Assembly: GCF_004343725.1 (NCBI RefSeq)
Contig: NZ_PTQW01000005.1
Coordinates: 1 to 64,000 of the forward strand
Direction: 5' to 3'
Source: Treponema sp. J25
GTDB lineage: Bacteria; Spirochaetota; Spirochaetia; Treponematales; Breznakiellaceae
Length of the DNA: 64,000 bases
Translations under genes and position numbers: made by a program
The notes under the pieces: model-generated
What the model saw: the letters and a program-made list of their open reading frames with translations, nothing else
What the model was told of the DNA's origin: nothing
The model's database searches: none
Shown: piece after piece, positions 1,523 through 37,772 of the stretch
Numbering within the stretch: position 1 is the stretch's first letter
How the letters are laid out: every line of letters starts with the position of its first letter

Positions 1523-4500
1523 ATGTTATTCACCGTAGGAAACCTATTAACCCTGGGAATCGTTCTCATACTTATGGTCCTCTTCCGGCAGCTGGACCGA
1601 AACAACCGCTCCCTTGATAAGGTACGGAAGTACGGGGAACGGCTTAAGGAAGAACTGGCCGCTTTTGTGGCTCAGCGGGAAGCGGCGGTAAAGGATTACG
1701 CGGTAGAACTGGATGTGCAGCAGCGGGCTGCGAAGGAACTGCTGAAGCGCCTCGTGATCACCGAAGAGGAACTCGCGGCGAAGGCCGAGGCGGTGGCCCG
1801 GATTGATGAACGGATCGCCGGTTATGACGCATCCCTGGATGAACTTATCAAGATGACTGCCCGGGTTCAAGAGAATCTGAACCGCATCAAAGAAGAAGCC
1901 TCCTTCACTGAATCGGTGTATAAGCGTATTGGTGATGCCAAGCATCAACTGGATCAGATTCAAAAGGAGTTACAGGATCTGGTGCAACAGTTTGAGCGGG
2001 AAAACATGGCCGCCCTGGAACGGGTGGAAGAAACCATGGTGGCCAGTATCAGGACAACCCTGGCGGATGTGCAGACCACCGCGGAGACGCTGGAACAAAA
2101 GGTGGAAGACCATCGGGAAGCGATCCTTTCCATAGAAAAAAAACGGGCCGAAACGCTGGAACGGGATCAGCAGCGTATCGAATCTATGCTTAGACAGGCC
2201 CTGGAACAGGCAGAACGGGCCGCCGATACCCTGGAAGAGCAGGCCTTTGCGAAACTTAAAGAACAGGCCCTGGAACGGGTACGGAAATTCCAGGCCGCGG
2301 TGGAAGAAAAACTGCTCCAGTACCAGGAAGCCACCAAGACCCGACTGGCTGAGGTCCAGGGGATGATCCGGACCTTTAAGGACGAATGGAAAGAGGATGC
2401 GGCCGACCTGGAAGCAAAACAACGGACTGCCCGGGATGCCTGGAAAAAAGAAATGCAGGATCTTTCCGAGATTGCCCGGCAGCAACAGGAAAGCTGGAAG
2501 CAAAACATGCAACAGCTTTCGGCCCTGGCAAAGCAACAGAAAGAAGAGTGGAAAGAGGAATTGGCCAAGGGGCTCACAGAAGTTCGTGCTATTCACGCTG
2601 AAATAAAACAGGGAACCGAACAGATTAAACGGGAAACGGCCCAACAATTGGCGGGCCTCCGGGAAGAGCTTGCCCAGACCCATCGCCATGCTCTGGATGA
2701 GACAAACCAGCTTGTCAGCGAGTTGCGTAAGGCCGTACATGGTTCAACCCAGGAAAATCGGACGATGGTAGAAAGCCTGCTTGCCGAGTTCCAGCAAAAG
2801 ACCCAGCAAACGATTCAGCAGAACCTTGAACAGGTGGAGGGTCTCCTGGAGGGGCTTCGTAAAAAAACGGAGGGAGCCGTTCAGGAGAATACCCGACAGG
2901 TGGAACAGCTCTTGGCAGAACTCCAGCAAAAAGCGGAGGCCCTTGCCCATCAAAATCTACAGGATATGGACCAACGGCTGCGGGAATACCAGGAAATTTT
3001 CCTTGCCCAGTTTGAAAAACTCCAGGCAAGCAGTGCCGAGGTAGAACGCCTGGAAGGGGAACTGCGGAAATTTATGGCCCAGACGGAAGGTCGGGTATTG
3101 CAAGATTTTGCTCAGTTTGAGCAAAAATCAGAGGCCCGCCGGCAAGAAACCCTTGCGCAGTTTGATGCGGCGGTAACCCAATTCAAAGGCCAGGTAGCAG
3201 AACTTGAACAGGAACTGGCCACCCTTAAGAGTAAGGCCTACGAAAATGTGTCTGAAAAATTGCAGGTCTTTGAGGACGATTTCTTTGCGGACCTGGCCAA
3301 CCGCAGTCGGGCCATCGATAGTCGCCTTGCCGAATGGGAAGAAAAAATTGCGGCCGACCTATTGGCCATGGGAGAAGAAGGGCGAAAAGAGCGGCAAGAA
3401 TTGGAGAACCAGTATACCGAGTACTACAAGAATCGTCTTGCAGAACAATCGAATCGGCTCCAGGAAGAGTTGGAACGCCTTAAACAACAGGCCGCAGCCT
3501 TTGAAGAAGGAATCCGGGAACAGATGGCTCAGGCTGATCAGTCCCTGCTTGCCTTTAAGGAACAGATGGCCCGGGACCTTGCGGAGGCCCGGGAGGCGGC
3601 AGCGGCGACCACCAAGGCCGAAATTGGGCGGCACAACCTTGCCATGACGGAGCTTCTTAAGACCACTCAGCGCGACATAGAGCAGAACCTGAAGAATCTC
3701 GAAAAGGATGTCCAGGAGCGCCTTGCGGCCCTTACCAGCGAGATTGAAAAAGAAGGCACCCAGTTGTCCGAATGGCAACTGCGCTTTAATAAGCAATTGC
3801 GGGACCTGGAGGCCATGGTTGAAGAGGCCCGCAAGCGTTCCCGGGAACTCCTTGCAGAAAGCGACGAGCGGCTTACGTCGGTCCGTTCTACCATTCAAGA
3901 GGCCCAGGAAGAGGCGGAACGGTATCAGAAAGAGCTTTTAGGGCGGACCGAAGAGCAGGTTAAGGGTCTGGGAGCGCTCCTTAAAGAAATGGACCGGCAG
4001 TTCAAGGATTTTGTGGAGCAGACCAAGCTCTTTGGAAAGGCGGAGGAACTGAAGCAAAGCCTGGAACAGCAGCTTGAGGACTTCCGGGTTGAATTGGATA
4101 AGCTGGACCAGCGGAAAGCAGAGGCCGCGGAACTGGAAGCCCAGTTTGTCAAGATTAAACGTCTCGAAGATGAAGTGAATGCCAAAATGACCCGGTTCCT
4201 GTCGGAGCGGCATCGGATCGAACTTATGGAGAGTGACTTTAAACGGCTGATCCAGACTGCCCAGGCGGTGGACGAAAAACTTGCCCAGGTCACCGCTTCT
4301 GATGACACCCTTCAGACTTTACAGGCCCAGCTTCGGCGCTTTGAAGATGCGATCAAAGACACGGAAGAAAAGTACCAGCGCCTGGAGAAGAAAAAACAGA
4401 TCCTGGATCTTACCACCAGTGGGGTCGATCAGACCTTTGAATCCCTTAAGAACCTGGAAGAGCGGGCCAAGGCTATCGGGGGCGAAACAGAACGTCTTGC

Positions 4501-4909
4501 CACAGAGCTGTCGAAGGCCCGGCAGAGCATTGATCAGGTGCTTTCCCAGAAGGATCTCGTGCTTACGGTGGTGGACAAGATGGAGCACCTGGATAGCACC
4601 CTGGAAGAACTGGAAGCCAGGATCGAAAAACTGCAGACCGCCCGGGAATGGCTTGCCCGAACTGAGACGAGGCTGAATGAACTTACCAAGCAGGCCCAGG
4701 ATCAGGTAAAACTCATGGGGACCCTGTTAAAGGGAGAAAGTAAACGGGGAAGTGGGGCCCCTAAAGATACGGGGGCCCCCGCGATCAGTGTCCGAGAGTC
4801 GGTGGTGCGCCTTGCCCAACAGGGGTGGACGGTGGAAGAAATTGCCCGGTCGGTAAAACTTTCCAAGGGCGAGGTAGAACTGATCCTGGAACTGGAAGGA
4901 AATCGGTAG
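1523..4909 (+). CDS. SpiroCoCo-type giant coiled-coil protein
   Basis: A 1128-residue protein that is almost entirely coiled coil. Residues 4-22 form one hydrophobic segment, so it is probably anchored in the inner membrane with the coil in the cytoplasm. From about residue 30 to 1060 it is rich in E, K, Q, A and L with heptad periodicity and several repeated stretches. After a short Gly/Pro-rich linker near 1075-1090, the last 40 residues (VRLAQQGWTVEEIARSVKLS region) look like a helix-turn-helix. I recognise the architecture as the spirochaete-restricted SpiroCoCo family, whose function is not established; a structural or filament-forming role is a guess. It follows the HAD gene by 7 nt and converges on nth. 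Confidence 0.8.
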   Translation: MLFTVGNLLTLGIVLILMVLFRQLDRNNRSLDKVRKYGERLKEELAAFVAQREAAVKDYAVELDVQQRAAKELLKRLVITEEELAAKAEAVARIDERIAGYDASLDELIKMTARVQENLNRIKEEASFTESVYKRIGDAKHQLDQIQKELQDLVQQFERENMAALERVEETMVASIRTTLADVQTTAETLEQKVEDHREAILSIEKKRAETLERDQQRIESMLRQALEQAERAADTLEEQAFAKLKEQALERVRKFQAAVEEKLLQYQEATKTRLAEVQGMIRTFKDEWKEDAADLEAKQRTARDAWKKEMQDLSEIARQQQESWKQNMQQLSALAKQQKEEWKEELAKGLTEVRAIHAEIKQGTEQIKRETAQQLAGLREELAQTHRHALDETNQLVSELRKAVHGSTQENRTMVESLLAEFQQKTQQTIQQNLEQVEGLLEGLRKKTEGAVQENTRQVEQLLAELQQKAEALAHQNLQDMDQRLREYQEIFLAQFEKLQASSAEVERLEGELRKFMAQTEGRVLQDFAQFEQKSEARRQETLAQFDAAVTQFKGQVAELEQELATLKSKAYENVSEKLQVFEDDFFADLANRSRAIDSRLAEWEEKIAADLLAMGEEGRKERQELENQYTEYYKNRLAEQSNRLQEELERLKQQAAAFEEGIREQMAQADQSLLAFKEQMARDLAEAREAAAATTKAEIGRHNLAMTELLKTTQRDIEQNLKNLEKDVQERLAALTSEIEKEGTQLSEWQLRFNKQLRDLEAMVEEARKRSRELLAESDERLTSVRSTIQEAQEEAERYQKELLGRTEEQVKGLGALLKEMDRQFKDFVEQTKLFGKAEELKQSLEQQLEDFRVELDKLDQRKAEAAELEAQFVKIKRLEDEVNAKMTRFLSERHRIELMESDFKRLIQTAQAVDEKLAQVTASDDTLQTLQAQLRRFEDAIKDTEEKYQRLEKKKQILDLTTSGVDQTFESLKNLEERAKAIGGETERLATELSKARQSIDQVLSQKDLVLTVVDKMEHLDSTLEELEARIEKLQTAREWLARTETRLNELTKQAQDQVKLMGTLLKGESKRGSGAPKDTGAPAISVRESVVRLAQQGWTVEEIARSVKLSKGEVELILELEGNR

Positions 4910-27085: not shown

Positions 27086-28789
27086 GTGATGGAACAGGAA
27101 GCTCCCCGGCTTAGCGCAACGAGCCGGGGATACACCATCTATTACAAAGAACGGTATCTTCTTTCTCCGCGGGATGCCGAGGGGGGCTGTGAACGGGTGG
27201 TAGAGGCTCTCCCGTTAAAAGAAGATACCCTGTACGTGGTGGCTTCTCCGCTCTTTGGGTATGGGCTTCCCCGTCTCGTTGCCCGACTCCCGAGAGGTGC
27301 TGCCCTGCTCTGTGTTGAGCTCGACCCTCTCCTGTATCAGGTAAGCGTTACCGAGTTCTGTGAGTTCTGTAAGGAAGTCTCTTCTCTGCCTTACCTTTGT
27401 ACTCCTTCTCCAGAAAAAGTGATCAATTTTGTCCGGACTACCTGGGGGCCCCGGCGATTCCGGCGCGTAGAACTACTGCGAATTACCGCTGGCTGGCAGA
27501 TCCACCCCGCAGGATACCAGGAAATAGTAAGGCTCCTTGAAGAAAGTATTGCCCTGGATTGGTTTAACGCTATGACCCTTACCAGGCTGGGACGACGTTA
27601 TGCCCGGAATTTTATTCACAACCTGGCGTTGCTTCCGCAAAGCTATGATGCCCGATCCCTTTCGTGGGGAAACGTGCCGGTTCTTCTCTGTGGGGCTGGC
27701 CCGAGTTTGGACGAAACCCTCTCCTCATTAGTGCATGTTTTACCTTCGGTAAAAGAGAAAAAACAACGGCCCTTTAAGATACTCTGTGTGGATACCGCCC
27801 TGAGGACCCTTCTTTTGTATGGGATTATTCCGGATCTTGTGGTGGTGCAGGAAGCCCAGTGGTGGAATCTCCGGGATTTTGTAGGCATACAAGAAAAGGA
27901 TGTTGCCCTTCTCCTTGATCTCTGTAGCCTTCCCGCCGTTCCTCGGCTTTCTGTGTTTAAAACGGCGCCTTTTTATTTATTTTATACGCCCTGGACATCC
28001 CTGCGTTTTTTTTCTCGTCTTAGCAATCGAAATCTGCTTCCTCTGCAGGTCCCTCCCATGGGTTCGGTGGGACTTACCATGCTTGCCCTGGCTCGCCAGA
28101 TAAGCACTGGACCCCTGTTCGTAGCAGGTCTTGATTTTTCGTATACCCTAGAACAGTTCCATTGTAAAGGAGCCCCGGGGTTTCTGGAGTCACACTATCG
28201 TCTTACCCGTTTTTTTTCTCCTATTCAGGGGGAAAAAAGCTTTCGAGAAAAAAGTCGTTCCCTAGCTCATCCTTTTTTGGCCCTCAGAACCGACCCGGCC
28301 CTCTTGCAGTACCAGCAACTCTGTGTGCGCCACTTTTCCCATCATCCTGCCATATTTGATCTGAGGCCCTGGGGTCTTGATCTGGGATTCCCCAGGCGAA
28401 CCATCGCTGAATTGGTGGCGCTTCTGTCTGAAGAAATGGCAGATTCTGGAGAGAATCCAGAAGGGGTGCCGCAAATCTCTGGTTCTTCTTCTACTTCCCC
28501 CTGGGCTCGAAAAGAGGTAGAATTGTTTTTACAGGATGAGAAAAAAACTCTAGAGCGGATCGTGGGGCTTCTTCAGGGTACAGAAGATACTGCCCCGGCA
28601 GAACTGGAACAGCTCCTGTCTGACCTGGATTATTTGTGGGCCCATTTCCCGGAGTGGGCAGGGCGGGAGGGAAGCATCCCCCCCACCCAAGACATTTCCT
28701 TTTTAAAACGGGTTCGGGCGGAACTAGACTTTTTTATCAAAACCGTCGAACTCGCTTTGGAAGAGATTTGTATACATGGTCTCTTTTAA
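27086..28789 (+). CDS. MptE-like protein (DUF115 / motility-associated glycosyltransferase family)
   Basis: A 567-residue cytosolic protein. The central region (about residues 185-350) begins VPVLLCGAGPSLDETL, the glycine-rich nucleotide-binding start of the 6-hydroxymethylpterin pyrophosphokinase MptE-like fold, and continues with CVDTALRTLLLYGIIPDLVVVQEA. Relatives in flagellated bacteria include motility-associated factors linked to flagellin glycosylation; that role is an inference. Start is GTG at 27086 or ATG at 27089, directly adjacent. Its stop and that of pepF share the palindrome TTAA at 28786-28789. Confidence 0.82.
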   Translation: MMEQEAPRLSATSRGYTIYYKERYLLSPRDAEGGCERVVEALPLKEDTLYVVASPLFGYGLPRLVARLPRGAALLCVELDPLLYQVSVTEFCEFCKEVSSLPYLCTPSPEKVINFVRTTWGPRRFRRVELLRITAGWQIHPAGYQEIVRLLEESIALDWFNAMTLTRLGRRYARNFIHNLALLPQSYDARSLSWGNVPVLLCGAGPSLDETLSSLVHVLPSVKEKKQRPFKILCVDTALRTLLLYGIIPDLVVVQEAQWWNLRDFVGIQEKDVALLLDLCSLPAVPRLSVFKTAPFYLFYTPWTSLRFFSRLSNRNLLPLQVPPMGSVGLTMLALARQISTGPLFVAGLDFSYTLEQFHCKGAPGFLESHYRLTRFFSPIQGEKSFREKSRSLAHPFLALRTDPALLQYQQLCVRHFSHHPAIFDLRPWGLDLGFPRRTIAELVALLSEEMADSGENPEGVPQISGSSSTSPWARKEVELFLQDEKKTLERIVGLLQGTEDTAPAELEQLLSDLDYLWAHFPEWAGREGSIPPTQDISFLKRVRAELDFFIKTVELALEEICIHGLF

Positions 28790-30585
28790 CCAAGGAGTTG
28801 TTCCAGTCTTTCCACGAGCTGCGCAAAGGTCTGGCACGCCTGGGCAATCGGTTCCGGGCTCCCCATATCTACCCCTGCGACCTGGAGTGCCTCGATCGGA
28901 TAGCGGGACCCACCGGATTTCAGGAAGGTAAAGTAATCTGCCCGTTCTTTCTCGCCTCCTGAGAGCACCCGTTCTGCCAGTGCCAGGGACGCGGAGATCC
29001 CCGTTGCATACTTGTACACGTAAAAGGCCCGATAAAAATGGGGAATCCGCAGCCCTTCCATGTCGCTTTCTGGTTCAAACACCATGGCTGGTCCAAAGTA
29101 TTTTTCCAGTAAGGTTCGATATTCGCTGCGGAGCCTATCCACCGTAAGGGGTTCCCCCGCTTCTTCTAAGCTATGGATCCGCTGCTCATATTCGGCAAAC
29201 ATGGTCTGGCGGTACAGGGTGGCAAGGATGTCATCGATCCGTTTGTTGATAAGATAGGTTTTCATCTCCTTTGTTTCAGCCTCTTGTTCCAGATACCGGA
29301 ACAGAAGTTCCTCATTAAACGTGCTGGCCACCTCTGCTTCAAAAATAGTATACCCATAGTGCATAAAGGGATTATTCCGGGACGAATACCAGGAGTGCAT
29401 CGAATGGCCCCCTTCGTGGGCGAGGGTAAAGACATCTCGGATCACGTCTTCTTTGTAGTTCATAAGGATGTATGGCAAGCCCGTATAACTTCCCGCAGAA
29501 AAGGCCCCTGAGCGTTTCCCTTTGTTTTCGTAGCGATCTGCCCAACGCCCCAGAAGGCCTGAACGAAGGGTGTGCACGTATTCTTCTCCCAGGGGAGCAA
29601 GGGCCTTACTGATGATATCAACCGCCTCTTCCCACGGAGTAGTTCGCTTTACGCTTTGAACAAGCGGCACGTATACATCATAGTGTCGCAGCTCTGGCAC
29701 CCCTAACACCCGCTTTCGGAGTTCGTAATAGCGATGGAGGGGGCCTAAGTTACGATTTACCGTGGCCACGAGATTATCGTAGACCGCTTCATCTACCCGG
29801 TCAGGAAAGAGGGCCATTGCCCGGGCACTGGGAAACCCCCGAAGGCGGGCTTTAATAACATCTTGCTTAACAGACCCAGCGTACAGCGTGGCCAGGGTGT
29901 TCTTGTGTTGTTCAAATTGTTGATAAAAGGCTTTGTATGCCCGGCGCCGGAGATCCCGGTCGGGTTTTTCCATAAAACTGGACCAGGTCGATTGAGAAAG
30001 GGGACGGGGACCTTCGGGGGTATCAATGCTTCCAAAGTCTATATCCACATTGGTAAGCACCGAGAAGGCCTCCTGGCAGGTTCCTTCTGATTCGGACATC
30101 ATGGCGATAAGTCGTTCTTCCCGGTCGCTGAGAATGTGGGGTTTCCAGCGAAGTATCTTTTTTAGGTAGATACGGTATTCTTCAAGACGAGGATGCTCCA
30201 GAAACTGGGCCATTCTTTCATCGGGGATAGCCTGAATTTCAGGGATAGCCCATGCACAGGCCGTATTTATGCGGGCATGGATAATGGTAAAACGGCCCGT
30301 CATAGCTCGGGCGGCGGCGGCCCCTTCGTCTTCGGTTTGCCGAAGTTCACAATAGTAGGCGAGTCGTTCTTCTAGAATGCCCAGATCCCGGTAAAAATCG
30401 AGCCAGTCTGCAAGTTTTTCCGCGGATGCTCCGAGGGTGCCTCGGAAATTTCCGATCAGTTTTTCTTTTTCTTCGTAAAGATCCAGGTCTTTATACCAGG
30501 CTTCATCGCTGGGATACAAACTCGAGAGATCCCAGGTATATTCGGTAGGTACTTCTGAACGGTTTGGAATGGTGGTTGTTTTCAT
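28786..30585 (-). CDS. pepF: Oligoendopeptidase F (M3B metallopeptidase)
   Basis: A 599-residue cytosolic zinc peptidase that degrades short peptides. The zinc motif HEGGH lies in FTLAHEGGHSMHSWYS, followed by the third ligand Glu in TIFEAEVASTFNE. The overall length and N-terminal helical domain match PepF. I begin at ATG 30585 (MKTTTIPNRSEVP); the longer frame adds a hydrophobic stretch not seen in PepF proteins. There is no Shine-Dalgarno; GATACT lies 9 nt before the ATG. It converges on the MptE-like gene with 4-nt overlap. Confidence 0.93.
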   Translation of the reverse strand: MKTTTIPNRSEVPTEYTWDLSSLYPSDEAWYKDLDLYEEKEKLIGNFRGTLGASAEKLADWLDFYRDLGILEERLAYYCELRQTEDEGAAAARAMTGRFTIIHARINTACAWAIPEIQAIPDERMAQFLEHPRLEEYRIYLKKILRWKPHILSDREERLIAMMSESEGTCQEAFSVLTNVDIDFGSIDTPEGPRPLSQSTWSSFMEKPDRDLRRRAYKAFYQQFEQHKNTLATLYAGSVKQDVIKARLRGFPSARAMALFPDRVDEAVYDNLVATVNRNLGPLHRYYELRKRVLGVPELRHYDVYVPLVQSVKRTTPWEEAVDIISKALAPLGEEYVHTLRSGLLGRWADRYENKGKRSGAFSAGSYTGLPYILMNYKEDVIRDVFTLAHEGGHSMHSWYSSRNNPFMHYGYTIFEAEVASTFNEELLFRYLEQEAETKEMKTYLINKRIDDILATLYRQTMFAEYEQRIHSLEEAGEPLTVDRLRSEYRTLLEKYFGPAMVFEPESDMEGLRIPHFYRAFYVYKYATGISASLALAERVLSGGEKERADYFTFLKSGGSRYPIEALQVAGVDMGSPEPIAQACQTFAQLVERLEQLLG

Positions 30586-30796
30586 AGAAATAACAGTATC
30601 ATTTCTTAAGAAAAAAAGGAATAGGCATGTCAAAGATGAAATTCCCTTTGAATTTCTTGGTTTTGAAACGAAGGAAAAGAGCCTTTTCTACAGAAAAACT
30701 CCTATTTTGCCGATAAGTTGATTGATTTATTCTGTTTTCGCTATATAATTGGAACTACAGTACGATTGCCATGCAACAAAAGGATGTTCTAGTGAT

Positions 30797-31831
30797 ATGA
30801 ACATGATACAAAAGTTACCAAAAGTAGAGATCCATATCCACGCGGAAGCCACAGTACAGTTTGCTACGTACTATGAGCTGAACAAAAAATACAAAATTAA
30901 CAAAAACTATAAGGATGAACAAAGCTTCCGGCAGTTGTTACAGATTTCGAGTCTTGAAGACATGATTCGGAATTTCTTTTTTCTACAGTCCTTCTTTCGG
31001 GCCCCAGAGGATTTTTCACTCCTTGCAAAGGATGTGGTAGCCTATGCCCGGCGAAACAATATTTGGTACATGGAGACCTATCTTTCTCCTTCGATGGTTA
31101 TCCGTCAGGGCTTTGTGGATTTCCATGATTTTGTAGATCCTATTGTGGAAGTATTTTCGGAGGAATTTAAGCGGGGTGGTATTGATATCCGCATCATTAT
31201 TGACGTTTCCCGGACCTTTGGGTATGAAAATGCGGCCCAGAATTTACGGCTTCTTAAGACATATCTTTCCAAAAAAAGTACCGATCGCATTATTGGGATA
31301 GGCCTTGGAGGGCAAGAAATCGACCATCCTTGTAAGGAATATGAGCGGGTTTTCAAAGAGGCTGGGGAAGCAGGATTCCACCGAGTAGTCCATGCGGGAG
31401 AAGAAGTGGGGCCCGAATCTATCTGGGAGGCTATAAATTATTGTCATGCGGAACGGATTGGGCATGGTACCAGCGCTATTTACGACAAGAAACTGCTTCA
31501 GTATCTCAAAGAACACCAACTTCCCCTGGAAATCTGTCCCACCAGCAATATTGTGACCAGAAAATTTGTATCGGCCTATGAAGATCATCCCATTTATTCG
31601 TTTTATCCGATGGGCCTTATGGTAACCTTGAACACGGATGATCCAAATCTTTTTGATGTGGAACTGAACGACGAATATCGTCGTTTCCTCTCCTATAATG
31701 GAGTTCAACTCAGCGACGGTATGAAGATACTTAAAAATACGGTACTTTCTTCGTTTGCTCCCCAGGAGACGAAAGAAAGACTCCTTAAGGAAATTGAAAT
31801 GTGTGTGGTTCCTAAAGGAGAAGTAAGGTAA
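30797..31831 (+). CDS. Adenosine deaminase-family protein with altered substrate motif
   Basis: A 344-residue TIM-barrel metal-dependent deaminase. Catalytic features are present: H13 and H15 in EIHIHAE, Glu in HAGEEVGPES, HG in RIGHGTS, and the Asp pair in LNTDDPNLF. The usual H-x-H-L-D/E-G motif reads HIHAEA, so two residues lining the substrate pocket differ from adenosine deaminase; the substrate could be adenosine, adenine or another aminopurine. I start at ATG 30797 (MNMIQKLPKVEIH), close to the family N terminus; a TTG 48 nt upstream falls in the -10 TATAAT (30744-30749). Confidence 0.82.
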   Translation: MNMIQKLPKVEIHIHAEATVQFATYYELNKKYKINKNYKDEQSFRQLLQISSLEDMIRNFFFLQSFFRAPEDFSLLAKDVVAYARRNNIWYMETYLSPSMVIRQGFVDFHDFVDPIVEVFSEEFKRGGIDIRIIIDVSRTFGYENAAQNLRLLKTYLSKKSTDRIIGIGLGGQEIDHPCKEYERVFKEAGEAGFHRVVHAGEEVGPESIWEAINYCHAERIGHGTSAIYDKKLLQYLKEHQLPLEICPTSNIVTRKFVSAYEDHPIYSFYPMGLMVTLNTDDPNLFDVELNDEYRRFLSYNGVQLSDGMKILKNTVLSSFAPQETKERLLKEIEMCVVPKGEVR

Positions 31832-31968: not shown

Positions 31969-34242
31969 ATGCAATTTCATTTAAGTCCGTACCAATTAAA
32001 AAAAGCCCGGTCGTTATATAATATTTTTAATACCCTGAACGGGCTTGCCTTTACGCTCCTGAGCGGTAATATCATCACCCTGTATGCCCTACGGCTGGGC
32101 GTCTCTGCCACGGTGATCGGCGTATTAAATGCCCTGGTGTTTTCGTCGTTTTTCTTTATGCCCGTCGGAAAATACCTGGTGCGACGTCATCCTATCGTAC
32201 AGGTTTTTGCTACGGCCTGGCTTTTTCGGTATGTGGGCATGATTCCCATCCTTTTTATTCCCCTTGCGGTACAGGGGGCACGTCTTGATATCGCCCTTGT
32301 TTTGTTGTTGCTCTCTGTTTCCCTGTTTCATATTACCCGCGGGGTCGGAATGATTGGCAATAACCCGGTCCTTAATGAACTTGCGGCGGGCCCTGATCGG
32401 GGGGCCTATATGACCACCATTCAAATCATTGGGAGTGGGGTTTCCCTGGTAACCAATCTGCTTCTGGCCCTATTATTGGGGAGAAATCCCCCTCTTTTGA
32501 TGTATACGTTAATACTCGGGTTTGGAATTGGGGCAGGAATTTTTAGTAGCTTTATGCTGTATCGTATTCCTGAACCGGCGCGAGAAAATCCGGCGGGGGA
32601 GCAGGATTTTTTTTCTACTGTCCAACATGCCTTTGCTCGAGCACCGTTCCGACGGTTCATGGTGATTTTCCTGACCCTTAGTTTTGTTTCGTCGGTAGCC
32701 CGTTCGTTCCTTGTGGTGTATGGAAGGCAGGTATACCACCAGGGTGATGGGATGATCGCCTTTTATTCTGTCTTTGGGGGGATAGGGGCGCTGATGGTAG
32801 GCCTGCTTACCCGTCTTTTAGTGGATCGAATCGGTGCAAAACCCCTATATGTATCTTTTACCTTTACTGCTCTTTTAGGCCTTGCCCTGGTACTTTTATC
32901 ACCAGCGATGAATCTTCTTTCATCAGAAGAAGCCTATCCTTTTTCTCAGAACGTAATAGTGGTGTTGCTCTGTACGATCTTTTTTATTGTGAACTTTGCC
33001 TTTGCAGGGACCGAAGGAGTGGCTCAACCGTACTTTTTTGGGTTAGTTCGCCCTACAGATATTCTGGACCTGGGTATTCTGTACTATATTGTCTATGGTC
33101 TTGCGGGTGCCTTTGGTTCCTTTGTTGCGGGGGTATTTCTTGATATGGTTGGTCAGTGGGGAATTTCTCCCCTCTGGGCTTTCCGGATGCTCTATGGATT
33201 TTTGAGTCTCCTTACCATACTGGTTTTATACTGGCAGAGAAAATTAATCCGATTGGGAGCCTTGCCACTGCGGGGAGCGTTAGCGGTAATCTTTTCATTT
33301 AAAGATCTCCGGGCCCTTACTCTTCTGGATAAGCTTGAAAAGACTACCCAACCTGAAGAAGAACAGGCCCTGCTCGAAGCCCTCCACGAAAATCCGTCGC
33401 CGGTGGCCCTTTCAGATTTGCTTACCCGTTTGCGTTCCCCCCGGCTTATGGTTCGCCTCGAAGCCCTTCGGGCAATCGATGCTCTGGAAGACCTTTCACC
33501 AGAAGCCCGGGACGCCCTTATGGAAGATGTGGTGCACAATCCCTTTACCACCGCCTATGCTTCAGCCCGGATTCTCGGCAACCATGGGGTCCGAGAAGCC
33601 ATTCCGCTCTTGCGACAGGCCGTGTTTTCGGAAGACTACATGCTGGCGGGAGAAGCCCTACTAGCCCTGGCGCGCCTTCGGGACGAAGAATCCCGTTCTC
33701 TTATAGAAAAGGTGGTCAGCTCTTCTCATAATCCCCGACTCCAGATTATGGGCGCCCTGGCCCTGGAAATTCTTGGTTCGATGGAGTCCCTGGGGGTGCT
33801 CCTCGATGTGATCCGCTATGAACATCCTGCTCCGTATGTACGGGATGAGATTACCCTTGCTATGGCAGGAATTCTGGGGGTAGGAAAAGAGTTTTATGCG
33901 GTGCTGGTGCAATATCTTTCTGACCCTTTATTGCTTTCTCCGCTGGTGATGGATATGTTAGAGGAAGCGATCAATACTTGTCTTAAAGGAAAGAGGAAAC
34001 AGACCAGAGAAAAAATGATCCCCATTTTTCAGGACCTGCGTATCGCTATGGAACAGTATCTAGGTGAAAGAAAGGGGGTTCCCCTTTCCTGCTGGATTCA
34101 GAAGCATCTGGGGAATTTAAAAAATCCCGGGGGGTTCCTTTTTGCTGAAATAGTGTTGGAAGATGAACTTGCCCCCTATGAACGCTTACGCCTCTTAGTG
34201 GGAACCTGGATTGCAAAACACCTGGAACATCTTTCCTGGTGA
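31969..34242 (+). CDS. MFS transporter fused to a C-terminal HEAT-repeat domain
   Basis: A 757-residue protein. Residues 1-425 contain about 12 hydrophobic helices in the major facilitator pattern, opening with SLYNIFNTLNGLAFTLLSGN and a central cytoplasmic loop. From about residue 440 to 690 the sequence becomes soluble and helical with HEAT-like repeats (for example 'RLMVRLEALRAID', 'EAIPLLRQAVFSEDYMLAGEALLAL', 'LQIMGALALEILG'). The substrate is unknown; the HEAT part could bind a regulator or partner on the cytoplasmic side. The downstream SH3-type lipoprotein frame overlaps its stop by 4 nt if its longer form is used. Confidence 0.8.
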   Translation: MQFHLSPYQLKKARSLYNIFNTLNGLAFTLLSGNIITLYALRLGVSATVIGVLNALVFSSFFFMPVGKYLVRRHPIVQVFATAWLFRYVGMIPILFIPLAVQGARLDIALVLLLLSVSLFHITRGVGMIGNNPVLNELAAGPDRGAYMTTIQIIGSGVSLVTNLLLALLLGRNPPLLMYTLILGFGIGAGIFSSFMLYRIPEPARENPAGEQDFFSTVQHAFARAPFRRFMVIFLTLSFVSSVARSFLVVYGRQVYHQGDGMIAFYSVFGGIGALMVGLLTRLLVDRIGAKPLYVSFTFTALLGLALVLLSPAMNLLSSEEAYPFSQNVIVVLLCTIFFIVNFAFAGTEGVAQPYFFGLVRPTDILDLGILYYIVYGLAGAFGSFVAGVFLDMVGQWGISPLWAFRMLYGFLSLLTILVLYWQRKLIRLGALPLRGALAVIFSFKDLRALTLLDKLEKTTQPEEEQALLEALHENPSPVALSDLLTRLRSPRLMVRLEALRAIDALEDLSPEARDALMEDVVHNPFTTAYASARILGNHGVREAIPLLRQAVFSEDYMLAGEALLALARLRDEESRSLIEKVVSSSHNPRLQIMGALALEILGSMESLGVLLDVIRYEHPAPYVRDEITLAMAGILGVGKEFYAVLVQYLSDPLLLSPLVMDMLEEAINTCLKGKRKQTREKMIPIFQDLRIAMEQYLGERKGVPLSCWIQKHLGNLKNPGGFLFAEIVLEDELAPYERLRLLVGTWIAKHLEHLSW

Positions 34243-34304
34243 AAGGCGATGGGGAGAGGGCGGACGATCTAGCAATTTTTTATTATTTTTCGTATGGTAC
34301 GTAT

Positions 34305-35804
34305 ATGTACGCTGGTAGTCAAAGGGATAAAAAAAGAAGCCTTCTCTATATGATTGTACTGGGTTTTTTGCTCAGTCTTCCCCTCTCCTGTACTCGTCCG
34401 ATGGGATGGGGGGTTGTTCTCTGGACCATTGATGCTCATTCTATCCCCGCAGGAACGGTGGTACCGGTCTATATTCGTTCTAACATCGATAAGGTTTGGG
34501 TAATTGGGATACCAAAGGAGTTGTTGAGCAAGTCTCCCGCCGGGGAGACCCAGGATAAAATAGAAGTGCCCCTCTGGCAGATTAACTTTTTTAAACAGAA
34601 ATCCAAGGCCCAGCAGTGGGCGGCGTCCTTTGCTCCCTTTGCTTCCCTGTATGGCGAGACCCTGCAGGATGGGCTTCCCATACGGGATAGCCCCGATAAT
34701 AATGGCCGGCGGGTGTATCGGCTCCGGGAGGGGCAGATCGTAAAGATTCTGGCCAGTGTGAAAGGAAGCCCGGTTATGGGCGCCGATGGGCCACTCCCCG
34801 GTGAATGGCTTCAAGTGTTGACCGATGATGGCGTGAGCGGTTACTGCTTTTCCTATCGCTTGCGAATATTTGAAAAACAGGTTGCAGTTTCTGAGAAGTC
34901 CCAGGCAGAAAAGACGCAAAAGGGTTCCACCACAGATGAAGAATTAGAGCTTGTTCTTGGTAGTAGATGGGTACCCCTCTGGTATCGTTCGATGTATGAA
35001 AAGCAGATGGTGGACCTTAATCGGGTATCAGAAAAGTGGGGGTTCTTTCCATCCCTTGAGGGAGGCATAGTACATATCCGTATGCCCGATTTTGAAAAGA
35101 GCTATCGATTTACCTCTATCGAAAGAAAGGATGAACACACCTGGTATTTTGCCGGCACACCGATTCAGATGCGTCTTGCAGAAAAGGATCAACTGGATGT
35201 GGAGATTCAAGAATCAGGGAAGGAACGGCGCTTTTTTCAGTATACCCTTCTTCCTGTAGCAGTGGAAGATTGGATTCGTCAGGAAGAGGAACGACGGCTT
35301 GCCCTGTATGATCAACTCCGGAACGAAGGATCCCTCTGGAGAAGTCCTACTTATGGCACCCTTTCTTTTTTGCCCGAAGGGAATTTTCAATGGGAAGACT
35401 ATGAAGTGCTTTTCCCTCAAATAATTCCGTTTCGGGGACCTGCCCGGGGAAAGGTAATTACTGGTCTCTACATTCCCGAAGAACTCCTTTCTCTCTATGA
35501 AGGGGCTTTCCAATTGATTTTGTCTTCACCGCAGGCAGGGACTGCATCAGAAAATTCCCCCCAGTCTTCTTCGTCGGGTCAGGGGAAAGAACTGGGCCTT
35601 ACCTTTTTGTACACCCTTCAGAACAGCGAGCTTATCCTGGAGTATGTTCCCTCCAGCGCTGTGGATGGGGTACAGGTGCTGCGTCGGGCCCCTGCGCCCC
35701 TTATTCTTCGCTTCCAGAAGGGAGAGACCTCTGGTGGAATCGAGCCCCCCCCTTTCTTTTTAGGGAGCGGCCGCTGGCTTATTCCAGAGAACCGCCGGAG
35801 CTAG
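34305..35804 (+). CDS. SH3-type lipoprotein of unknown function
   Basis: A 499-residue predicted lipoprotein. The signal is a basic QRDKKR followed by LLYMIVLGFLLSLPLSC with the lipobox Cys. Residues of about 125-190 resemble a bacterial SH3 domain (GLPIRDSP... GEWLQVLTDDGVSGYC), a fold that often binds cell-wall peptides. The rest is beta-rich and unassigned. I choose ATG 34305 since it gives a normal signal peptide and TATGGT ends 6 nt before it; a GTG at 34239 would overlap the MFS gene by 4 nt but adds 22 residues before the signal. Confidence 0.7.
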   Translation: MYAGSQRDKKRSLLYMIVLGFLLSLPLSCTRPMGWGVVLWTIDAHSIPAGTVVPVYIRSNIDKVWVIGIPKELLSKSPAGETQDKIEVPLWQINFFKQKSKAQQWAASFAPFASLYGETLQDGLPIRDSPDNNGRRVYRLREGQIVKILASVKGSPVMGADGPLPGEWLQVLTDDGVSGYCFSYRLRIFEKQVAVSEKSQAEKTQKGSTTDEELELVLGSRWVPLWYRSMYEKQMVDLNRVSEKWGFFPSLEGGIVHIRMPDFEKSYRFTSIERKDEHTWYFAGTPIQMRLAEKDQLDVEIQESGKERRFFQYTLLPVAVEDWIRQEEERRLALYDQLRNEGSLWRSPTYGTLSFLPEGNFQWEDYEVLFPQIIPFRGPARGKVITGLYIPEELLSLYEGAFQLILSSPQAGTASENSPQSSSSGQGKELGLTFLYTLQNSELILEYVPSSAVDGVQVLRRAPAPLILRFQKGETSGGIEPPPFFLGSGRWLIPENRRS

Positions 35805-35813
35805 GGGATACCG

Positions 35814-37772
35814 ATGGCCTTTGTCCAGTGTACCAAAGTCTCCCTTGCCTATGGGGATAGGGATATCCTGAAGGACGTAAGCCTTTTCCTTGGTCCCGGT
35901 TCTCGTTCAGCCCTGACAGGGGCTAATGGCTCTGGGAAATCGACCTTAATGAAGGTTGTGGCGGGCCTGATTCAGCCTGACCGGGGTGAACGCTCCGTGG
36001 ATCGGGATAGTCGCATTGCCTACCTTCCCCAATCGGGTATTGTTCACCGGGGTAAAACCCTCCGGGAAGAGGTAGAACAGGCCTTTGGGTTTATCCAGCT
36101 TCTCATCCAGCAGATGGAGCAGGTGGGCGAGAGGCTTGCCCAGAGCCGAGAGGAGGATGAGCGGACCCGTGCTTTGTTAGATGAATACCACCGGCTTCAG
36201 GAAAAAATAGCCCGGTCAGGATACTACGAACGGGAACAGTTTATTGGCCGAGTGCTGGAGGGACTCGGTTTTGAACGCTCCGATTGGGATCGTCCTGTCG
36301 AAGTATTTTCTGGGGGCTGGCAGATGCGGATAGCCCTCGCAAAGGTGCTTTTGGAACGGCCCGATATTCTGCTTCTCGACGAGCCTACCAACTACCTGGA
36401 CGTAGAAGCCCGTACCTGGCTCGAAGGGTGGCTTAGAGAATTCCCGGGGGCCTACCTGATAGTTTCCCACGATCGGTATTTTCTCGATGTGACGGTGAAT
36501 GAAGTGTATGAGTTGTTTCAGGGCACCCTGCGCCGGTATGTGGGTAATTACAGTACCTATGAAAAAATTCGACAGGGTGAACTGGAGGCGCTCCTGGCCC
36601 AGTACGAAGCCCAGCAGGAAGAAATCGCCCGAACCGAAGAGTTTATCCGCCGCTTTCGCTACAATGCGGCCCGGGCCTCGCTTGTGCAGGATCGGATCAA
36701 ACGGCTTGAAAAAATGGATCGAATCGAGATCCCCGAGTCCCTCAAGCGCATACATATCGAACTGCCGCCGCCGCCCCATTGCGGCCGCAGGGTCTTAGTT
36801 CTGGAAGGCCTCGGCAAAAGCTACGGGAACCACCGGGTGTTCCGGAACCTGGATCTCCTTGTGGAGGCGGGAGAAAAACTGTTAGTGGTCGGCCGCAATG
36901 GGGCGGGGAAAACGACCCTTCTGCGGATCATCGCCGGTCTTGATACGGACTACGAGGGAACCCTTACTCTGGGTACGGATGTACAGATTGGCTATTTTTC
37001 CCAGGATGTGGCGGAAACCATGACCGGTTCTCAGTCGGTGCTGGAAACCCTGGAGGCGGAGGCTCCCCTGCACCTTATTCCCAAACTGCGGGACCTTTTG
37101 GGGGCCTTCCTTTTCCGGGGAGACGATGTGTACAAGACCGTTTCGGTTCTGTCGGGAGGGGAGAAGAGCCGCCTTGCCCTGCTCAGGCTGCTGCTCCATC
37201 CGGTGAACCTCCTGATTCTGGACGAACCGACGAATCACCTGGACCTTCATTCCAAGGATGTCCTCCTGGAGGCCCTGCAAAAATATCCGGGGACGGTGAT
37301 CTTCGTGTCCCATGACCGGGCTTTCATGGAGGCCCTTTCGACAAAAACCCTGGAGCTTTCTGGAGGACAGGGGCGCCTTTTTTATGGGAATTACGCCTAT
37401 TACCTTGAGCGGATTGAACAAGAATCGGCCCTTCCTCAGGAGACAGCCCGGATTCCTCCACCGAAAGAGCAGAGCCTTTCGGCGGCGGCCCGTTATCGGG
37501 AAGAAGAAAAGAAGCGACAGGCCCAAATCCGGCGTCTTGAACGACAGGAAGCAGAACTTATGGGCCGCATCGAACAACTGGAAGCGGAAAAGCAGAGTAT
37601 CGAAGCTGCCCTCGCGGATCTCGCTACCTATCTGCAGGGGCAGCGAGTTAAGGAATTACAGGGAGCCCTTACAGAGGTATCCCGTTTAATAGAAGCGGCA
37701 AACGCAGAATGGGAGCGTTGTGCCCTGGAATTGGGGGCCCTCCGTTCTGAGCTACGAAAGGAGCACACATGA
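35814..37772 (+). CDS. ABC-F family ATPase (ribosome-associated type)
   Basis: A 652-residue soluble protein with two ATP-binding cassettes and no membrane segments. Domain 1 has Walker A GANGSGKST (about residue 38), signature FSGGWQMR and Walker B LLLLDEPTNYLD. Domain 2 has Walker A GRNGAGKTT (about 360), signature LSGGEKSR and Walker B LLILDEPTNHLD. The charged linker between them and the C-terminal coiled coil (about 560-650) are typical of Uup-like ABC-F proteins, which act on ribosomes or branched DNA. The specific subgroup is uncertain. galE overlaps its stop by 4 nt. Confidence 0.93.
   Translation: MAFVQCTKVSLAYGDRDILKDVSLFLGPGSRSALTGANGSGKSTLMKVVAGLIQPDRGERSVDRDSRIAYLPQSGIVHRGKTLREEVEQAFGFIQLLIQQMEQVGERLAQSREEDERTRALLDEYHRLQEKIARSGYYEREQFIGRVLEGLGFERSDWDRPVEVFSGGWQMRIALAKVLLERPDILLLDEPTNYLDVEARTWLEGWLREFPGAYLIVSHDRYFLDVTVNEVYELFQGTLRRYVGNYSTYEKIRQGELEALLAQYEAQQEEIARTEEFIRRFRYNAARASLVQDRIKRLEKMDRIEIPESLKRIHIELPPPPHCGRRVLVLEGLGKSYGNHRVFRNLDLLVEAGEKLLVVGRNGAGKTTLLRIIAGLDTDYEGTLTLGTDVQIGYFSQDVAETMTGSQSVLETLEAEAPLHLIPKLRDLLGAFLFRGDDVYKTVSVLSGGEKSRLALLRLLLHPVNLLILDEPTNHLDLHSKDVLLEALQKYPGTVIFVSHDRAFMEALSTKTLELSGGQGRLFYGNYAYYLERIEQESALPQETARIPPPKEQSLSAAARYREEEKKRQAQIRRLERQEAELMGRIEQLEAEKQSIEAALADLATYLQGQRVKELQGALTEVSRLIEAANAEWERCALELGALRSELRKEHT

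Follow-up and report, generated by a model that had tools for sequence, protein, structure and literature searches.

Transporters that carry HEAT repeats in the same polypeptide chain have been described for nucleotide transporters, in the form of the NTT-HEAT and NTT-HEAT-cNBD proteins, in which the HEAT part is located C-terminally (Major et al. 2017, PMC5381601). According to the accessible part of that paper these fusions are widespread in bacteria, have returned once to the unfused state and contain a HEAT domain whose role was given as unknown; NTTs were reported there as not found in Spirochaetes. The spirochaetal protein studied here resembles the NTT-HEAT proteins, as far as they are described in the part available, in having a HEAT domain C-terminal to a membrane transporter within one chain. 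It differs from them in its transporter part, as none of 23 aligned family members matches the NTT profile (TLC, PF03219) at E<=0.1. We therefore regard it as a parallel design on another MFS-type branch, outside NTT-HEAT. A PF03219 search of its own genome likewise gave no match, but control genomes were equally empty. MFS_1 (PF07690) is matched by all 23 members and MFS_2 (PF13347) by four of them; the standard families behind these two profiles have no HEAT domain, and a match to them does not indicate a substrate. A preliminary description of the locus had not recognised the combination as a named family. This stands in so far as no Pfam or NCBIfam model spans the whole of MFS plus HEAT, and it needs correction in so far as NTT-type transporters fused to HEAT were already described in 2017 (PMC5381601, accessible part). 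Among the titles and abstract openings of the open-access literature we recognised no paper on this type of MFS-HEAT fusion, NTT-HEAT being the nearest. The MFS-HEAT architecture is real, conserved and little noticed; it is new as a variant of a design that has precedent.

The gene lies at 31969-34242 on the plus strand of the window (the whole stretch of DNA that was analysed, 64,000 nucleotides) and forms one uninterrupted frame with an ATG start, 757 codons for amino acids and no internal stop. It can be divided into four parts:

31969..33237, plus strand: MFS permease domain, residues 1-423, with 12 predicted TM helices (MFS_1 match, hydropathy, charge bias)
33238..33342, plus strand: junction from TM12 to HEAT, residues 424-458 (53% mean identity, the highest of the four parts)
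33343..33903, plus strand: HEAT-repeat solenoid, residues 459-645 (HEAT_2 at E 1.2e-13, helical pairs in the AlphaFold2 model, alphaRep matches)
33904..34242, plus strand: C-terminal helices, residues 646-757 plus stop codon (least conserved part, 19%; AlphaFold2 helices at 653-755)

Residues 22-349 match MFS_1 with E 3.4e-13 and 49.7 bits, above the curated cut-off of 33.4, and the family as a whole behaves likewise, with 23 of 23 members matching at E<=0.1. Four stretches of the C-terminal part match HEAT_2 (51.6 bits, cut-off 27.7), and HEAT_PBS is also found (E 1.7e-4); a cyclic-nucleotide domain has no Pfam match in the 757-aa protein. The claim that an MFS transporter is followed by HEAT-type repeats in one protein is thus borne out by two profile matches above cut-off in a single frame. 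As the preliminary description itself had pointed out, a frameshift might have joined two originally separate genes. Such an artefact is ruled out, since the frame is open, orthologues recur in 48 of 392 genomes and nearly all listed orthologues are without internal stops. Some relatives have even longer open frames of 1180-1441 aa which look like larger fusions; according to the translations read for three of them (L045, L050, L053), the additional length is open frame that precedes the true start.

The C-terminal part has both the profile match and the solenoid of helical pairs that are expected of a HEAT protein. AlphaFold2, for which three sequences (the window protein, L001 from Gracilinema caldarium, and L002) were used as input, places paired helices throughout residues 444-755, with block pLDDT values of 79-91 over residues 511-700, and the top PDB matches of the model in Foldseek are alphaRep/HEAT proteins (best E 9.2e-4). 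Hence the solenoid, for which a structure prediction had been proposed as the check, is present. A profile built from the 23 members matched alphaRep among the PDB sequences at E values down to 9.5e-25; together with the occurrence of both Pfam families (E<=0.1) in 23 of 23 aligned members (alignment A3), this makes the solenoid more than a chance similarity. The alphaRep and HEAT proteins resemble MFS-HEAT in profile and fold over the C-terminal part; unlike MFS-HEAT they are soluble, mostly designed proteins with no transporter. In the same three-sequence model the MFS part is of low confidence (block pLDDT 29-69), and therefore a contact between HEAT and MFS can not be read from it. No MFS entry among the PDB sequences was significantly matched by the 23-member profile, the nearest being SLC45A4 with E 0.15.

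When averaged over 40 orthologues, hydropathy is consistent with a set of 12 TM helices, the last of which ends near residue 423; the helix limits were placed by eye on the profile. The protein therefore contains a whole 12-TM MFS transporter; the number of helices given in the preliminary description was right, the word "half" used there was not. The loops on the side of the N-terminus contain on average 19.8 Lys plus Arg and those on the opposite side 3.3, with the same direction in 41 of 41 sequences. By the positive-inside rule the part following TM12 is consequently predicted to be cytoplasmic, including the HEAT domain and the C-terminus, in agreement with what had been predicted earlier for the HEAT part. 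Twelve helices with both ends in the cytoplasm, the usual MFS arrangement, are thus indicated by hydropathy (limits by eye) and by the Lys plus Arg bias.

Sequence comparison places the window protein in clade A of an old and larger family of fused MFS-HEAT transporters in spirochaetes. A profile search found full-length or nearly full-length clade A orthologues in the 48 genomes mentioned above, and beside these one genome (G203) with the MFS part only. Mean identity to the window protein over 40 orthologues is 41% for the MFS part, 53% for the junction, 44% for HEAT and 19% for the last 112 residues; by this measure the HEAT part is conserved as much as the MFS part, and the junction (424-458) more so. 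These 40-sequence statistics and the clustering of neighbouring genes are based on the fetched loci, which are fewer than all 48, and L072 (MFS only) and L073 (clade C) were left out of the hydropathy, charge and identity values. Near-invariant positions within HEAT are S490, P491, R496, T528 and D556. In the MFS part polar residues within the membrane are retained, and a motif-A-like sequence in loop 8-9, D286-R287-x-G289-x-K291-P292, is largely retained across the clades. W84 and R87 in predicted TM3 and R124 in predicted TM4 are invariant in clade A (24/24) and clade C (10/10); in clade B the first two occur in none of nine proteins, and R124 in none of the eight residues listed for these nine. 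The buried R87 and R124 may be a weak hint at an anionic substrate of clades A and C.

Many Spirochaetia have no clade A protein in the search of the 392 genomes (e.g. the listed g15 genomes), so that MFS-HEAT is dispensable across the class. It is kept, however, in G056 in spite of genome reduction: the only match in this genome of 1,139,633 bp is the clade A protein L060, which has both MFS_1 and HEAT_2. In plasmid records tblastn gave no match with the window protein, and none of five records covers 80% of the clade B paralogue.

This clade B paralogue is encoded in the window's own genome (L094 4706-7057, minus strand, G000:C54; 784 aa) and contains MFS_1 and HEAT_2; its MFS motif A looks canonical. 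Profile-profile comparison aligns clade A with clade B over 630 columns and with clade C over 672 columns, each with probability 100 and each through MFS, junction and HEAT. Fused forms were found in 48 genomes for clade A, at least 14 for B and at least 22 for C, and at least 71 of the 392 genomes have one or more; these counts are lower bounds, as paralogues are under-counted when at most two candidates per genome are scored. The cut-offs chosen for the lists of A, B and C were about 1e-200, 1e-130 and 1e-160. The tally of 71 also counts members broken up by a stop codon, a change of frame or the end of a contig (G379, G245, G261). Excluded from the clade lists are the MFS-only proteins of G203 and G313, the likewise MFS-only clade C match of G130, a second divergent match in G313, a contig-end fragment in G376 and divergent members from outside the class (G011, G025, G051, G104, G144, G147, G163). 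More divergent MFS plus HEAT proteins exist outside the class too (e.g. L135, L138).

A quick maximum-likelihood tree, calculated from the MFS part of 52 rows with SH-aLRT as the only support measure, separates A, B and C and places MFS-only members within A (L072), B (L132) and C (L136, L113). The SH-aLRT values at the relevant forks are 90-98, some of the nestings lying at 90-93. In the same-strand ORFs downstream of L072, L132 and L136 no HEAT half was seen when the ORF ends were inspected by eye. As MFS-only members are nested inside fused clades, the fusion appears to be old and HEAT to have been lost repeatedly; one old fusion followed by several losses of HEAT would be the simplest reading of the tree.

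Two clade B genes are interrupted, one by a stop (L142 5998-8333, G379) and one over two frames (L134 5914-8240, G245), which could be due to decay, split genes or assembly error. Furthermore, eight loci encode stand-alone proteins, about 190-260 aa long, whose match to the clade B profile is confined to its last approximately 180 positions:

L123 5956-6528; L124 6089-6859; L125 4689-5261; L126 5887-6531: stand-alone proteins resembling the end of clade B
L127 and L128 5962-6534; L129 5956-6525; L130 5986-6549: further stand-alone proteins of this kind

The end of clade B therefore looks like a separate domain. All eight loci also contain a DUF4954/DUF6819-like gene (by Pfam for two of them).

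For the function of the fusion we consider a transporter modulated by its HEAT arm as the leading reading, with a probability of about 0.5. The MFS part would move its substrate by ordinary alternating access, and the HEAT solenoid would sit under the cytoplasmic mouth, anchored by the conserved junction. A cytosolic partner would bind to the solenoid and thereby bias the cycle of opening and closing, so that transport would be switched or localised and not always on. That HEAT regulates transport or recruits a partner is plausible. As HEAT was lost and MFS kept in several lineages, the HEAT domain would act as a modulator outside the transport core, a role which we infer from this pattern of loss and from its conservation. 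More tentatively, the spirochaetes may have inherited a distinct class of permeases whose MFS part is gated or positioned by a cytosolic HEAT arm via a soluble partner; the fusion would then predate the split of the three clades, have an origin separate from that of NTT-HEAT and have been kept even in a reduced genome, presumably that of the syphilis agent.

Proteins in which a transporter fold serves as a receptor are represented by Snf3/Rgt2 of yeast and UhpC of bacteria. By analogy, the MFS part of MFS-HEAT might transport nothing, or do so incidentally, and serve in the membrane as a sensor or an anchor, with HEAT offered as a scaffold to cytosolic proteins. The conservation of HEAT and junction, at least as good as that of MFS, would suit such a function, and so would the lack of a conserved metabolic operon in 43 loci. 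However, lineages that dropped HEAT and kept MFS are hard to bring in line with HEAT as the output, and MFS-HEAT retains the motif-A-like sequence and its intramembrane polar residues, as working transporters do. We therefore think that a receptor or anchor is rather unlikely. Similarly doubtful is an ordinary MFS transporter with an inert HEAT tail that serves folding or stability alone. The loss of HEAT in some members and the poor conservation of the last 112 residues (19%) speak for a tail of this kind; the near-invariant positions in a HEAT part of 44% identity, the 53% of the junction and the preservation of HEAT in three anciently separated clades speak against it.

Because of the same overall design and domain order, the protein might also be seen as a divergent member of the NTT-HEAT family, and the only transporters among the best 50 Foldseek rows are indeed AtNTT1 structures (ranks 18 and 44; E 0.02 and 0.062). 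We give these matches no weight, as they rest on the low-confidence model of the MFS part. When PDB sequences were searched with the family profile, AtNTT1 did not come up at E<=1. With TLC matched by none and MFS_1 by all of the 23 members (E<=0.1), and with the report, in the accessible part of PMC5381601, that no NTT was found in Spirochaetes, membership in this family is very improbable.

How spirochaetes, including the poorly culturable ones, take up their nutrients is only partly explained. The modulated transporter favoured here, with its presumed built-in docking arm, would offer a concrete target, namely the partner of the HEAT arm and the cargo of the permease, and the repeated loss of the arm with retention of the permease is a natural experiment which provides versions with and without HEAT. 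Many spirochaetes share the MFS-HEAT design, and the agent of syphilis is probably one of them. Judged from gene order, L060 of G056 is probably TPANIC_0840 of Treponema pallidum, and TPANIC_0840 is a probable orthologue of the clade A proteins. In the open-access literature one paper was found for this locus tag (PMC8525777). Its accessible part calls the protein simply "MFS transporter" without mention of HEAT and reports higher transcription in culture than in rabbit.

The gene neighbourhood of MFS-HEAT in the window is composed as follows:

28786..30633, minus strand: PepF-like M3 oligopeptidase (Peptidase_M3, 5.5e-79), a recurrent neighbour of MFS-HEAT
30749..31831, plus strand: adenosine deaminase-like protein, upstream (A_deaminase, 6.5e-68)
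34239..35804, plus strand: SH3_3 lipoprotein, directly downstream (SH3_3, E 3e-8; SH3 at ORF residues 144-206)
35814..37772, plus strand: ABC-F-like ATPase, downstream (ABC_tran, ABC_tran_Xtn)

That the next gene encodes an SH3-type lipoprotein had been recognised correctly, as the SH3_3 match and a lipobox agree. Although its ORF opens at 34239, the start is likely the ATG at 34305, with the lipobox Cys at ORF residue 51 (alignment A1, lipobox), and the two genes therefore probably do not overlap. The AlphaFold2 model of the lipoprotein has a mean pLDDT of 41.7, and no Pfam match at E<=1 relates it to pallilysin. By profile search the SH3 lipoprotein occurs in 165 of the 392 genomes, including 45 of the 48 with clade A. 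The idea that both genes form a functional pair spanning the envelope and connecting the two faces of the inner membrane is hardly credible: they are adjacent on the same strand in five of 45 genomes with both (G000, G194, G304, G309, G365), as well as in two loci from named MAGs, L001 and L002, but lie apart in 40 of 45, and 120 of the 165 lipoprotein genomes are without clade A. The co-occurrence check across spirochaetes proposed in the preliminary description thus gave no conserved linkage; the lipoprotein is a common spirochaete gene which in one group happens to stand beside MFS-HEAT.

Among 43 loci neither a fixed operon partner nor a conserved metabolic operon was found, and the neighbours vary between families. 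A MATE transporter gene is next to MFS-HEAT in eight loci, PepF is near it in seven and the SH3 lipoprotein is next to it in six, the last number not including G304, whose lipoprotein was masked by an antisense ORF. None of the three recurs widely enough for a substrate to be named from it. In all eight MATE loci the two genes share a strand, the MATE gene lying upstream in L044, L046, L047, L049, L051, L052 and L057 and downstream in L041. PepF is found in the window and in L056, L059, L063, L064, L035 and L002, mostly upstream and in opposite direction; in L059 the two genes are tail-to-tail. In G277 a lipoprotein with a match to the pallilysin beta-barrel (L068 6616-7965, E 1.8e-8) is located directly upstream of MFS-HEAT. 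Further upstream of the region, the window encodes an MptE-like protein at 27086-28789 (Pfam, 1.5e-18) and, at 1523-4909, an ORF of 1128 aa with only a weak DUF6115 match (3e-6), within a stretch of strong AT skew (0.306).
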